The notes under the pieces are model-generated. The model did no database searches. It saw only the letters and a program-made list of their open reading frames with translations, and had not been told where the DNA came from. The translations under genes and the position numbers were made by a program. This document shows positions 37,829 through 43,669 of a DNA stretch of 64,000 nt, one piece after another. The stretch comes from Sacculina carcini (Eukaryota > Arthropoda > Thecostraca > Sacculinidae). Each line of letters starts with the position of its first letter. The first letter of the stretch is position 1. The stretch spans positions 4,930,001-4,994,000 of the forward strand of contig OU696577.1 in the NCBI GenBank assembly GCA_916048095.2, in the 5' to 3' direction.

Positions 37829-37840
37829 AGCTATTTCGGC
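37829..37840 (+). other. LTR-5 primer-binding site: complement of tRNA-Phe 5' end
   Basis: AGCTATTTCGGC directly follows the LTR end CTACA, identical to the sites of LTR-4 and LTR-6. The next bases (CTTTTAG) differ from both, which limits the conserved block to these 12 nt. Confidence 0.8.
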
Positions 37841-38521
37841 CTTTTAGTTTGGTTTTTTGTCGGCGACCCGGCTTCAGAGATGGTGCCCTCCAGTATTAGC
37901 AGCGGCCTGGAGGAAGTGGTGGAGGTGCTCGGCGGCGTGTCAGGTTGGTGTGCAGGGGGACGGCAGTAGGGCATGGTGCCGGCAGGAAGCAGCGGAGGAG
38001 CTGCAGCCGAGGGTTGCTCGTCGTCCCGCCTGCACTGGTGTTGGACTCGTCGCCGGGCAGATAGAAGATCGCTGGTGGAGACTGCTGGTGCTGGAGGGCA
38101 TGTGAGAGAAAGGAGCTGCTGAAGCCGGAGGAGAAATGACAAAGACGACGACGGTGCGGCTTGCGTGTGCGGCGGAGTCACGGCTGTCTGCGACGGGGTG
38201 CTGAATAGCACGGGTGTCGGCGGGAGCACAGTGGGTGCTGGGCCCGAGGTGTTGTGCCCTGTCGCGGCAGCCTGTGATAAAGAAGACGGCAGGCTGCGGC
38301 GAAGCACTGAAGAGCACGGGCGGAGGCGGGAGCGCGGTGGACACTGGGGCCTGACGTGTTGTGCTTCGCCGCAACCACGGTGTGTGCATCTGGTGGAGGC
38401 CGTCGTCGAGTTAAGTTTTTTTTTTTTCTCTAGAAACTAAATTGGTTCCTGGTTTGCTTGGTTCGCGTTTTTTGATTGTCTGTTCTTTTGTTGATTTATG
38501 TTTCTTTAAAACAGGTGGAGG

Positions 38522-39047
38522 TGTGGTGTGATCGTGTGCAGTGAGAGAGTGTGTGTGTGTGAAAGATTGTGTGTGCGTGAACGTGTTAGTGTGTCTATAT
38601 GTGATCGTGTATGGTTGAATTGTATATTGCGTGCGAGAGTGTGTGAGCCAGTGTGTATAGCTGTGTCTGTGAGTATGTGCAGTTGTTTCGGTGTGTGTGT
38701 GTGTGTGTGTGTGTGTATGCGTTTGTCGAGTATGCATGTCCCGCGGCGGCGAGCGGTTGACCGGCTCGCCGCTGATTGGTTGTTGCGGCGGGTGAGGACT
38801 GTGTGTGTGTGTGTGTGTGTGTGTGTGTGTGTGTGTGTGTGTGTGTGTGTGTGTGTGTGTGTGTGTGTGTGTGTGTGTGTGTGTGTGTGTGTGTGTGTGT
38901 GTGTGTGTGTGCTCCCGTGTGTCACGGTGTGAGCTCGGAGTCTTGTTCGTGGTGCGGTTGTGGCGTGACGTCTTGTAGGCGCGCGTGGGGCGGTGATGCC
39001 CACGCGCGCCTGTCTGTAATATAATTTAGATTTTTGTTTTTGCTACA
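38522..39047 (+). repeat. LTR-5 3' LTR with expanded TG tract
   Basis: 526 bp. The 60-bp excess over the 5' LTR is accounted for by the main (TG)n tract (about 56 units at 38800-38911 against 27) and 2 bp in the first tract. Confidence 0.88.
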
Positions 39048-39052
39048 TCAAC

Positions 39053-40039: not shown

Positions 40040-42999
40040 CGCCCCCGTGATGTCTTCATCATCTCCAACGTGGTGATCTTCCATCCACCGAGGTCTGCGC
40101 CTTTCTCTTACGGGCCTGCCTTGATGCTCTTCACCGAAACTCCGCATCTCCGCTTCACCAGTAGAACGCCGCGCCTCGCTTTCGTCCTCTTCGTCCGATT
40201 CATCCGCAAACTACCGCCGCACGTCTAAGACGGGCGCGGTGTGCCGTCGACATCAATATTACTGGAAGATGTCACACCAGTAACTCTACCTCTGCGCCAA
40301 TGTGTGGTGCATCTCGCTCCAGGTGGTTTCACCAGCACCTCATCTCCCACTCGCCAGCCACTGTCTTCTTTCCGTGAACCCTCAACAGGAGTCATGGGAT
40401 GTATCCACTCATAGCGGTACAGCCCGCGTGCTGGAGCCGTCTCAGGGTCGGCCATATTCTTTGGTGTCATGTTGTACCAAAACACCATTTCTGGTGGAGT
40501 TTTGCCACATCGGTCCGCCATTATCTTCACAGTGCGATGATGACGTTCTACGATCCCGTTTCCCGTAGGTCGATAAGCTGCTCGATACCTTCTGATGACA
40601 CCCCACTTGTCACACAGCTCTGCCAGTACAGACGGTCGGAACGCGGCACTGTTGTCCAGCAACAGTTAATCCGGAGGTCCTCTTTCGAGAAACACGTCGT
40701 TCAGGATCCTCACAATGTCGTCGGCGTTCTCGGAGCGCGCCTTTTTCCATAGCGCAAAGCGACATGGGCAGGAATCCACAATAGTCACATAGCACTGGCC
40801 CTTATACTCTGTAGCGTCCACCGACAAGCGACTCCAATTATTTTCCACACTAATTTCGCCAGGAGGATGTCTTACTGGCGCTGGATCCACCGACTGACAA
40901 CGCAAACATCTTTTCACACAGTCCTCCGTTTCTTTCTTGGTCACTTTGGGATCTACCATTCTACTCAGCGCCAAGGTTCTGTCGACACCAAAATGATGCA
41001 GAACATGTAACTCTTCCACCGTCATAAGACCCGTCTCATTATTTGCCTCAGATATCCGTAGCCACGACCTCGGCACCCTGGTGAGTGCATCCGCCTTGTT
41101 ATGTTCTGACCTAACGTAAGATGCTAATATTCTCAGACCGAGTTCATCAACCAGATCACTCAATACGCCAAGCCTGCGTTTGATCAACATTTCAGCCGCA
41201 CTGCTGCTCTTCACCCGGCTCTCGCCGTTTAGCACCGATTTCAGCCATCCAAGCACCGTGGAAGAATCCGTTTTCACCTCGATCTGCTGAATATCCTATT
41301 TCACCGCTAGGTTGACTCCTCTCAACACGGCGTCCATCTCGACAACGTTGATGTGATGTGCATCACCTGACTTTCGCAGACACGACGCGTCTTCTGCTAC
41401 CCAGCCGTCCACCTCAAGAATAACTCCTAGAGCAAGACTGCTAGCATCACACCAGACGGTTCCTTTCAGCTTGTCAGGTACATGCCATCTGCCACGCACT
41501 GGATCATTCGACAGAACTTTCTTCAGCATTTCTCGTGCCATTACCAAAGTCTCACAGCTCACGCTTTCATCCCAATCAATATTTTGTGTCGATCTTTTCA
41601 CAAAACTAGCGGCAGCCCTCAACCACCCAGCCACAAGATGGTGCCCAACTAGTCTGCCGCACAAGGAAAAGAGTTGTCTCTTGGTCGTGCCATCTTCTAC
41701 ATCATCCAGAAGTTCATTCCCTCTGCTGAAAACCAAAACACCTCTGTCTAGTCTCAGATTCAGTCCAAGTGCTCGACCATTTTCTATGTCCTCAGGTACC
41801 TTCGCCTCCAAACCGTACTCTTTCAAATGATTGATGACATCGGCGGCGCTCACAACACTCTCGTTTACCAGAATATCATCTATATACGAGCTCGTTCCTG
41901 ACTGGATTCGTTCGTTCATGCTCAATACCTTCCTTAAAATCTTCGTCATCACCCGGGGTGCACAACTAAGACCGAATCTCAGTCTCGTTAGACAGTACCT
42001 GTCCCCATTAAACTCGACTTGCTGGTACTGCCATAAAGTTTCATCCATTTTTATCTGCAGGTAAGACGTCTTCAAGTCGACCAATTTTAGCGGGCCCGGC
42101 CACCTGCGCCAGCCGCGCAATGTCTCTTCACACACCGGAGCGTCGAACCCACTGTGACTCTCAACGTACTTATTGAGTTCGCGGTAGTCAATCACCGGCC
42201 TCACCTTTCTCTTATTCGGTTGATCAACGGCCATCAACGGAAGTATGCCCCCGGTCATTCCACAAGGTATCAACCAGCCCTGTAATATCCATCTCCGAAT
42301 CTCTTCGTCAAATCTATCCTTCAACTCGGGCTTCCGTACACTGCTGTAACTATCGACAACGTTTCTGAGCACCGGGGCCCCGTGGCACCATTTCCACTTC
42401 ACTGTCCACGAGTCACCATCGAATCTAGCCTCAAAATCACAGTTATCTATCTTCAGTTCATCCGACGGACACACCTCAGTTTTCGCTGTTCTCGGAACAG
42501 TACCTGCAGTCACACTGCACACCCGACCGCCATTAGGCAACGAACATTCTCTGGGCCCCAATACTACACCACGCTCATCCACATATACGCCCCCCAGCCT
42601 CGCAACGACGTCCATGCCAAGAATCACTTCAACCTCGCCCAATAGATCGTTAGCCACTATCACAGGCAACCAGAGTTCCACGCCACCTACAGCCACTCGC
42701 ACCTTGTCCGTACCAGCACACGGCACTCTACGACTATCGACGGTAGTCACGCTGCAGCTGCCACGCACATTTACAGCAATCGATCGAGACACGATCGACA
42801 TTGTGCAGCCCGTGTCCATCACAGCATGCACATTTCTACCATTGACTACCGCTGGTACACGCGGAAGCGCCATTACTGACTGGTCAGTGGGAGAGCTGCT
42901 GGCGCACCAGATCTCCCCTCGTCGTTTCCCGTCTGTTGTGTTCTTTCTTGTTCGCGAGGACAGTTTCGCCTTAGATGCGGTCCCTCGCATCCGAAACAT
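40040..42999 (-). pseudogene. LTR-6 pol with two stops and a terminal frameshift
   Basis: Colinear with LTR-4 pol: protease DTGCT, RT with VRPVIDYRELN, LTRLRFGLSCAP and YIDD, RNase H, then integrase with VDATEY, LLDNSAAF and GNGIVERHHR, so the DDE residues survive. A TAG near 41298 splits RNase H and a TAA at 40663-40665 lies just before the second integrase Asp. After 40225 the tail shifts frame and ends RRRPRWMEDHH. Otherwise it is a single frame in the -1 position relative to gag. Confidence 0.85.
42867..42930 (-). promoter_or_regulatory. LTR-6 -1 frameshift signal and pseudoknot
   Basis: G_GGA_AAC in the gag frame at 42930-42924, a 6-nt spacer, then a stem GGGAGA (42917-42912) with TCTCCC (42894-42889). 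Loop GCGCCA (42905-42900) can pair with TGGCGC at 42872-42867, directly after the gag TAA. The layout matches LTR-4. One base pair in the second stem differs on both sides (A-T here, G-C there). Confidence 0.75.
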
Positions 43000-43649
43000 T
43001 CAATTTGGCGACGCACATTTTGCAAAGGAACACCGCTGCTCCGCGCATTGCAGCACCTTGCGAGATGAGGGCCACCACAATTGAAACACCTTCTCTGCGT
43101 CGAATATTGTATTTTCTCATTGCGAAAGTGTTGCGTGTTTCGTGCCACCATCTCAGTACTACCCTCGCCGATCTCTATCAAAAGGATGCGTGCACGCTCG
43201 ACGACCGACGCCAAAGCAATTGTTGTCAAATTCGGCATGGTTCTCAACCCTCGTAAGACCTCACGCGGCAATCCCACCACAAAAGCGTTCTTGAGAACGT
43301 TATCACACTCAATATTAGCAAGCTTAGCAAGTCGTCTCAGGCTTGCCATGTAAACATCGGCTGACTCTCCCTTCCACTTGCACGCGGTGAACATTTCGTA
43401 TGCCGAGAACCTGTCTGTAGCGAAAGCGTCCAGCAGTGATCTTTTGATCTCCGAATACACACACTTTTTGACCTCATCCATTTCACAGAACACTGCGTAC
43501 GCCGGTCCATCGAGGAACAGAGGCACGACGGTCTTCAGGGCGTCGATCTTCTGTAGTTCTGCCACTCTATCAAACTTATCGATCCATTGCACGACATCCT
43601 GGTTCCCGTCAAACGGCCGTACAATGTCATGCAGCTTCAGATTCGCCAT
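42873..43649 (-). CDS. gag: LTR-6 Gag
   Basis: Intact frame of 258 residues starting MANLKLHDIVRPFDG, eight bases after the PBS. It is clearly related to LTR-4 Gag (VVQWIDKFDR, CKWKGESADVYMASLRRLA, AFVVGLPREV) and has two C-terminal knuckles, CFNCGGPHLARCC and CFGCEGPHLRRNC. It is still open although pol is broken, so Gag could in principle be made from this locus. Confidence 0.8.
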   Translation of the reverse strand: MANLKLHDIVRPFDGNQDVVQWIDKFDRVAELQKIDALKTVVPLFLDGPAYAVFCEMDEVKKCVYSEIKRSLLDAFATDRFSAYEMFTACKWKGESADVYMASLRRLAKLANIECDNVLKNAFVVGLPREVLRGLRTMPNLTTIALASVVERARILLIEIGEGSTEMVARNTQHFRNEKIQYSTQRRCFNCGGPHLARCCNARSSGVPLQNVRRQIECFGCEGPHLRRNCPREQERTQQTGNDEGRSGAPAALPLTSQ

Positions 43650-43657
43650 ATCTAAGT

Positions 43658-43669
43658 GCCGAAATAGCT
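43658..43669 (-). other. LTR-6 primer-binding site: complement of tRNA-Phe 5' end
   Basis: Sense AGCTATTTCGGC follows the LTR end CATTACA. The next bases (ACTTAGAT) differ from LTR-4 and LTR-5, so the shared block is exactly 12 nt. Confidence 0.8.

Follow-up and report, generated by a model that had tools for sequence, protein, structure and literature searches.

Which primer an LTR element or a retrovirus uses is among its basic features. In copia-type elements, the primer-binding site (PBS) pairs with a tRNA 5' half at its 3' end, on the anticodon side. In Ty5, tRNA-iMet is cut in the anticodon loop (PMC5371799), and in the fungal copia elements FunCo1 the PBS pairs with an internal stretch of tRNA-Lys (PMC5445492). 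In mouse IAP, the PBS is 18 nt long and matches tRNA-Phe at its 3' end (PMC7472051). Tf1 primes itself with the first 11 nt of its own mRNA, which RNase H releases by a cut between bases 11 and 12, and a potentially novel priming was stated for Tcn2-5 of Cryptococcus (PMC7175516). As far as the available open-access texts go, no PBS for a tRNA 5' end was recognised in the literature, which is a weak negative.

The window analyzed here, a stretch of 64,000 nt from Sacculina carcini, contained three exact copies of the 12-mer AGCTATTTCGGC (Table 1). The first-pass annotation had placed all three directly behind 5' LTRs. This was borne out for LTR-4 and LTR-5 by LTR pairs and target site duplications (TSDs), while LTR-6 has the site and no LTR pair in the window. 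The LTR of LTR-4 ends with ...TTACA directly before the site and its TSD is GCAAC; the LTR of LTR-5 ends with ...CTACA. No 3' LTR of LTR-6 was found within the window. A copy of the LTR-6 family on contig 1 (L098), however, has a 3' LTR, which ends with ACA at the same border.

Table 1. Features of the elements with AGCTATTTCGGC and of one contrasting element in the window.
Element	Feature	Positions	Strand	Remark
LTR-4	putative PBS, AGCTATTTCGGC	26473..26484	-	directly adjoins LTR end
LTR-4	5' LTR, 421 bp, TG...ACA	26485..26905	-	99.8% identical to 3' LTR
LTR-4	3' LTR	22437..22857	-	LTR pair comparison
LTR-4	gag frame, zinc knuckle	25737..26465	-	ATG 7 nt past PBS
LTR-4	pol open frame; predicted protease (weak match), RT, DUF7047, RNase H (RVT_3), integrase	22894..25824	-	
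LTR-5	5' LTR	37363..37828	+	LTR pair, TSD TCAAC
LTR-5	putative PBS, AGCTATTTCGGC	37829..37840	+	exact match at LTR border
LTR-5	internal region, about 680 bp	37841..38521	+	no listed frame of at least 250 aa
LTR-5	3' LTR	38522..39047	+	LTR pair
LTR-6	putative PBS, AGCTATTTCGGC	43658..43669	-	family LTR border from copy L098
LTR-6	gag frame	42873..43649	-	ATG 8 nt past PBS
LTR-6	pol fragment; protease, RT, DUF7047	41296..42999	-	domain matches
Other LTR element	ordinary 13-nt 3'-CCA PBS, tRNA-Ser(GCU)	56907..56919	-	contrast

The 12-mer is far more abundant than expected by chance. With up to one mismatch, the window held 4 matches, of which 3 were exact, versus a mean of 0.18 in shuffled sequences. 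In the 264-Mb genome of the same species, 2021 exact copies were found versus 5 for the reversed control, and the numbers with up to one mismatch were 2309 versus 11. Moreover, 1844 exact copies were directly preceded by ACA, versus none of the reversed control. When the 5' 12-mers of 12 other tRNAs were searched as sites in the assembly sequence examined, none was preceded by ACA.

AGCTATTTCGGC is complementary to the 5'-terminal 12 nt of tRNA-Phe, GCCGAAAUAGCU, of the published animal sequence. The earlier identification of its reverse complement as nt 1–12 of tRNA-Phe agrees with two published Drosophila tRNA-Phe probes, whose given sequences end with ...GAGCTATTTCGGC. The assembly yielded no tRNA-Phe gene, either with four patterns (0, 0, 0 and one match that was not a tRNA by eye) or with two DNA searches, the first of which returned two partial copies and the second cross matches to tRNA-Cys and tRNA-Met. 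ARAGORN also reported no Phe among the collected tRNA loci (63 of 15013 candidates scored). Thus, support for the match comes from the published animal sequence and the two partial genomic copies. Both partial copies start at nt 38 and match the tRNA-Phe query over 30 of 30 nt and at 94% of 35 nt, respectively. The expected start of tRNA-Phe is GCCGAAATAGCT; one partial copy has TTTCGGC at nt 66–72, which implies GCCGAAA at nt 1–7. The tRNAs identified in the assembly are of metazoan type and suggest an animal.

The calculated energy of the duplex between the site and the tRNA was -18.7 kcal/mol and cofolding was favourable, but a cloverleaf was not obtained for the unmodified tRNA in that calculation. 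For nt 1–12 to anneal, the acceptor stem would have to open, and so would half of the D stem. Bipartite docking by the rest of the tRNA was rejected: within 300 nt on either side, the longest complements to nt 13–76 of tRNA-Phe were 6–8 nt, no longer than those of shuffled sequences in 14 of 14 regions.

AGCTATTTCGGC is best read as the putative PBS shared by LTR retrotransposons of one large clade, which have a predicted order of gag, protease, RT, DUF7047, RNase H and integrase. The gene order, protease-RT-RNase H-integrase, was of the Ty3/gypsy type, and the elements had TG...CA LTRs, a target duplication and a purine-rich stretch before the 3' LTR. The RVT_1 match of LTR-4 was below the Pfam cut-off (19.9 versus 29.6 bits), while that of LTR-6 was above it (32.1 bits); similarly, the protease match was below the cut-off in LTR-4 and above it in LTR-6. 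An RNase H domain is predicted in LTR-4 from a match to RVT_3. For DUF7047, no paper was found in the open-access literature. LTR-5, for which no long frame is listed, was read as non-autonomous. The copies examined that bear the site fell into 16 clusters, and as the compared gags were mostly homologous they form one clade. The gags of LTR-4 and LTR-6 were 45% identical, and gag identities went down to 27% (among the best 40 pairs) while the site stayed the same. Given that LTR-4 and LTR-6 belong to one clade and that LTR-5 has no listed long frame, the common site does not represent three independent inventions.

The position of the site relative to the LTR was also constant. In all 12 distinct places in which a downstream LTR copy was found, this copy ended with ACA at the same border; 10 of these copies diverged right after the border and two ran into a second PBS with one change. 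Such a downstream copy was detected in only 4 of 10 loci of 5.3 kb around sites. A 5-bp TSD was found in 6 of 7 elements examined, in two of which the LTR start had been moved by 1–2 nt to TG by eye. Among the 16 clusters, the next base behind the 12-mer varied (A in 9, C in 4 and T in 3), and the conserved block ends exactly at the position pairing with tRNA nt 1. Most sites were collected with the 12-mer itself; in a sample of copies selected by pol, blind to the PBS, 4 of the 5 readable copies had the exact site and one had it with a single mismatch.

Similar to the PBSs of copia and Ty5, AGCTATTTCGGC would pair away from the 3' CCA of the tRNA (PMC5371799), so that the 3'-OH has to come from a tRNA cut internally. 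Different from copia and Ty5, however, the complementarity is to nt 1–12, at the very 5' end of tRNA-Phe, and the 3'-OH would lie in the D arm. The half-tRNA priming of the copia type does not agree with a match to nt 1–12. The likeness to FunCo1 is also limited, as its PBS pairs internally, not with the tRNA 5' terminus, and FunCo1 belongs to another superfamily and host (PMC5445492). With IAP the tRNA species is shared, but the opposite end of the tRNA is matched (PMC7472051). Similar to Tf1 and sushi elements, a primer of 11–12 nt would be the 5' end of an RNA in the PBS duplex, which here, however, is a tRNA instead of the element's own mRNA.

Since the site directly adjoins the LTR end, it is most simply explained by a primer whose 3'-OH lies near nt 12. 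The geometry proposed in the first-pass annotation, in which a PBS at the LTR places the primer 3'-OH at U12, is sound, given that the LTR ends were fixed by LTR pairs and target duplications. Nucleotides 1–12 of tRNA-Phe would pair with the PBS such that the 3' side of the paired piece points at the LTR, and minus-strand DNA would start at a 3'-OH at about nt 12 (10–12). From sequence, we therefore consider the 5'-terminal 12 nt or so of tRNA-Phe to be the probable primer, with a probability of roughly three in four. If so, this would be a new priming mode, fixed on the 12 nt of a tRNA 5' terminus, in a clade for which a single genome has about 1,800 exact sites preceded by ACA. It would also link tRNA priming with the self-priming of Tf1, and PBS searches restricted to 3'-CCA sites would miss such elements.

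Conventional priming by a tRNA 3' end next to the LTR was not supported, as no TGG-type site was found at the border. The first-pass annotation had stated that no TGG for a 3'-CCA is present, which holds for LTR-4 and LTR-6, in which no 3'-CCA match of at least 8 nt was found within 60 nt of the LTR (16 anticodon types, with Phe included only as the known tRNA-Phe sequence), and needs qualification for LTR-5, in which an 8-nt match to tRNA-Met lies 52 nt downstream of the LTR. For the LTR family at 13909–18854, whose LTR border was taken from the repeat table and is uncertain, no tRNA match was found. Self-priming as in Tf1 and sushi elements, in which the site would pair with the element's own RNA, has a site length close to the 11-nt Tf1 primer and the direct contact with the LTR in its favour, and upstream complements reached 7 nt in one and 8 nt in another of the 41 contexts, 8 of which had less than 600 nt searchable. 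In the other 39, they were 4–6 nt long, as in shuffled sequences. The full LTRs gave 5 nt for LTR-4 and 6 nt for LTR-5, and the 600 nt before the site of LTR-6 held no complement longer than 5–6 nt. As an identical 12-mer also stands behind different LTRs, and no complement beyond chance was found in the 16 cluster representatives and then in the 41 contexts and window LTRs, the probability of self-priming is close to negligible.

The primer might also be another RNA ending with ...GCCGAAAUAGCU, or the 12-mer might be a signal for packaging or integrase with priming elsewhere. Such readings would be consistent with the lack of a tRNA-Phe gene among the search results, with the conservation of ACA before the site, which could reflect a signal spanning the border, and with the 7-mer TGGTGCC, which 7 of the 41 contexts (those of the LTR-5 type and L094) have 41–82 nt past the LTR. 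TGGTGCC fits the 3' ends of both tRNA-Phe and tRNA-Met; it makes up 7 nt of the tRNA-Met match of LTR-5 and is seen again in six other contexts. It is short and away from the border, but may have a role. Both readings are quite improbable, given that the conserved block stops where tRNA nt 1 pairs and that the tRNA-Ser element, the only one in the window in which a conventional PBS was recognised, carries it at a comparable position, 5 nt past the LTR. Moreover, in LTR replication it is the 3' end of the primer that defines the U5 border, and whatever directly follows this border is the PBS. Trimming of 2 nt by integrase is common among retroviruses and occurs in certain retrotransposons. As the data give the integrated end only, the true U5 end could be ...ACAAG and the primer nt 1–10 of tRNA-Phe; this is improbable, however, because the match of AG, the first two bases of the site, to tRNA nt 11–12 would then be a 1-in-16 coincidence.

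How the tRNA-Phe primer would be cut is less clear. The earlier proposal of a 12-nt fragment cut in the D arm stands with regard to a primer end near nt 12; a fragment cut beforehand is not required, because a full-length tRNA might also bind through its 5' end and be cleaved once bound. Our leading guess, made tentatively and by analogy with the 11-nt self-primer of Tf1, is RNase H cleavage in the tRNA:PBS duplex, in which intact tRNA-Phe would dock and the RNase H of the element's RT would cut the RNA:RNA duplex after nt 12. A host nuclease might instead cut in the D arm, leaving a 3'-OH, and the pre-made 5' fragment, akin to the half-tRNA of copia though shorter, would then be packaged. The length and position of 12 nt fit such a fragment, and half-tRNA priming in copia and RNase P cleavage in Ty5 were described (PMC5371799). 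This is nonetheless somewhat less likely, as tRNA-Phe 5' fragments on the Drosophila northern blots described were about 35 nt, not 12 nt (PMC7038984), and as one case, L090, fits better with an intact tRNA in the particle. The cut in the docked tRNA could be part of a third start mode, which we suggest with some doubt: the 12-nt piece of a 5'-docked intact tRNA would prime after the RNase H cut, which would combine tRNA capture with primer cutting of the Tf1 type, and the nascent DNA would sometimes jump from the PBS to the acceptor strand and stop before position 37. The jump target would be the acceptor strand that docking of this tRNA-Phe displaces, which has the same TTTCGGC. Both partial genomic tRNA-Phe copies adjoin element sequence, only one of them in register with the PBS: in L090, the 3' part of tRNA-Phe reaches nt 72 at the PBS edge and continues, still in register, into sequence that can be aligned with the region behind the PBS in the LTR-5 family.

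The 12-mer AGCTATTTCGGC, complementary to nt 1-12 of tRNA-Phe, matched the window exactly three times, in LTR-4, LTR-5 and LTR-6, as the first-pass annotation had claimed. That this site directly follows the 5' LTR was borne out for LTR-4 and LTR-5, which possess LTR pairs and target site duplications (TSDs). For LTR-6, no 3' LTR was found within the window, and the border was seen at the same ACA in L098, a copy of this family outside the window. In LTR-4, gag starts 7 nt past the site, a purine-rich stretch lies ahead of the 3' LTR, and RT, DUF7047, RNase H and integrase were matched in the pol open frame, where protease and RT scored under the Pfam cut-offs. 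LTR-5 is read as a short, non-autonomous element. LTR-6 retains the site, gag and a portion of pol. The LTRs of LTR-5 contain long GT repeats and are unequal in length.

Features analyzed (window positions unless a contig is given)
Feature	Position	Strand	LTRs	TSD
LTR-4, 12-mer site	26473-26484	-	421 bp, one base apart, TG...ACA ends	GCAAC
LTR-4, pol with DUF7047	22894-25824			
LTR-5, element	37363-39047		466 and 526 bp	TCAAC
LTR-5, 12-mer site	37829-37840	+		
LTR-5, TGGTGCC	37881-37887			
LTR-6, 12-mer site	43658-43669	-		
LTR-6, pol with DUF7047	41296-42999			
Element used as positive control	53781-57166			
LTR family with uncertain border	13909-18854			
Repeat arrays (21 bp and 30 bp)	28091-30237, 33301-33720, 5117-5546			
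Non-LTR reverse transcriptase frame	29838-33221			
L089, partial tRNA-Phe beside element sequence	C12:8525000-8530500			
L090, partial tRNA-Phe at centre of head-to-head arrangement, in register with PBS edge	C19:4478000-4484000			

In the same genome assembly (264 Mb, 43 contigs), the exact 12-mer occurred 2021 times (1005 + 1016), versus 2 + 3 for the reversed pattern. Preceded by ACA it occurred 1844 times (924 + 920) versus 0 for the control, and with at most one mismatch 2309 times versus 11. Individual places were listed for the first 100 matches, all on contig 1. The sequences examined included 41 distinct contexts reaching 300 nt or more upstream; these fell into 16 clusters, only a rough lower bound because clustering was by single linkage on shared words and the largest cluster joins coding and non-coding elements. 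Among the 16 cluster representatives, positions -3 and -2 were always A and C, respectively, and -1 was A in 15. The first base past the 12-mer was A in 9, C in 4 and T in 3. An ATG lay 0-19 nt past the 12-mer in 14 representatives, and by our reading it opens a gag-like frame in 12 of them.

The LTR border was examined by testing whether the 25-30 nt preceding the site recur downstream. A second copy was found at 12 distinct places (two of the three in the window and 10 in loci elsewhere), with divergence immediately past ACA in 10 of the 12. Just four of ten 5.3-kb loci had one; many other loci stop ~1.5 kb downstream, too short to show it. In the near-identical L094 and L095, another site, AGCAATTTCGGC, which differs at one base, comes directly after the LTR copy; these are tandem elements (LTR-internal-LTR-internal). 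TSDs of 5 bp were present in six of seven elements examined, the exception being L026; for L025 and L029 the LTR start was shifted 1-2 nt to TG by eye.

Of 12 gag N-termini compared, 11 appeared among the best 40 pairs, with identities down to 27%, and L003 was absent from those pairs; the 12-mer has therefore been kept while the proteins diverged, and the elements are read as a single clade. A pol-based search, which avoids selecting by the 12-mer, gave two overlapping tables with 134 rows between them. On contig 1 there were five distinct pol matches, one of which (13.2 Mb) lay beyond the listed 12-mer places. For three of the other four (5835055, 6656290 and 8115082), the exact site preceded by ACA was located on the same strand, 0.7-1.2 kb upstream of pol, and the fourth had ACA-AGCTATTTCGTC, with one mismatch, directly ahead of gag. 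L102, on another contig, had the exact site 662 nt ahead of its pol match. The site was thus present in all five readable pol-selected copies (four exact, one with one mismatch). The rows assessed were those on contig 1, L102 and L101, the last of which is LTR-6 itself.

The best explanation, to which we assign a probability of about 0.75, is that the 5' end of tRNA-Phe serves as primer. Two published Drosophila tRNA-Phe probes, as given in their source, end in the 12-mer and confirm its complementarity to the tRNA 5' end. Neither four pattern scans nor two DNA searches located the tRNA-Phe gene of S. carcini in the 43 contigs, whose mean length is 6 Mb and which may lack unplaced scaffolds; the last DNA search picked up tRNA-Cys and tRNA-Met at 76-87%. 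Two partial tRNA-Phe copies were found, both from nt 38. In one, nt 66-72 read TTTCGGC, which implies a predicted GCCGAAA for nt 1-7. TTTCGGC occurs in the PBS as well as in the acceptor strand of tRNA-Phe.

Only one of these two copies, L090, is a clear case at the PBS edge. Both its flanks match the LTR-5 family internal region, outward in opposite directions (~74% and ~71%), and on one strand tRNA nt 38-72 are followed, directly past TTTCGGC, by sequence alignable with gaps to the post-PBS region of that family. Minus-strand DNA may have copied the PBS, switched onto the tRNA-Phe 3' strand and halted at nt 38. Position 37 of tRNA-Phe bears a bulky modification, and the proposed stop would fall just before it. 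L090 fits tRNA-Phe including its 3' part at the PBS and so favours an intact tRNA rather than a 12-nt fragment on its own, but a microhomology jump of any kind onto tRNA-Phe would give an identical picture. The tRNA copy of L089 adjoins a frame resembling, by eye, the element's RNase H, and an LTR-5-type LTR starts about a quarter of a kilobase further on.

Self-priming, in which the site pairs with the element's own RNA, is judged highly improbable and is not supported. Upstream complements were at most 4-6 nt long in all but two of the 41 contexts, the exceptions being one of 7 nt and one, in L102, of 8 nt; shuffled sequences reach 7-10 nt. The LTRs of LTR-4 and LTR-5 held 5 and 6 nt, and the 600 nt ahead of the LTR-6 site 6 nt. 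A second pairing region to the tRNA was not found beyond chance in 14 regions. The claim that no TGG for a tRNA 3'-CCA exists stood for LTR-4 and LTR-6, in which no site of at least 8 nt occurred within 60 nt of the LTR (16 anticodon types tested); LTR-5 has an 8-nt tRNA-Met 3'-end match. TGGTGCC, a 7-mer that would suit the tRNA-Phe or tRNA-Met 3' end, was present in seven of the 41 contexts (LTR-5, L005, L018, L026, L032, L091 and L094); at 41-82 nt behind the LTR, it is too distant from the border to set U5. The 3'-CCA test recovered a 13-nt tRNA-Ser(GCU) 3' site 5 nt past the LTR of the control element, and no tRNA match in the family with uncertain LTR border.

In LTR elements the primer 3' end sets the U5 border, and a primer of tRNA-Phe nt 1-12 would therefore leave a 12-nt block from LTR edge to tRNA start; if 2 nt were trimmed at integration, the primer would be nt 1-10. 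A PBS directed at the 5' terminus of a tRNA is not known to us, and no report of one was found in searches of an open-access library. Half-tRNA, internal-tRNA and self-primers are already described (PMC5371799, PMC7175516 and PMC5445492). In Tf1, whose primer is the mRNA 5' end, RNase H is described as cutting the self-primer between bases 11 and 12 (PMC7175516). The same geometry, with the tRNA 5' end in its place, would by analogy serve for the 3'-OH here; cutting by RNase H in the tRNA:PBS duplex is a tentative guess. A host nuclease is possible as well, because RNase P is reported for the internal cut in Ty5 (PMC5371799).

DUF7047 (PF23088) lies downstream of RT in the pols of LTR-4 and LTR-6 and, in the former, precedes RNase H; no paper naming it was found in the open-access library searched. 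Finally, two of the three repeat arrays overlap or adjoin the long non-LTR reverse transcriptase frame.
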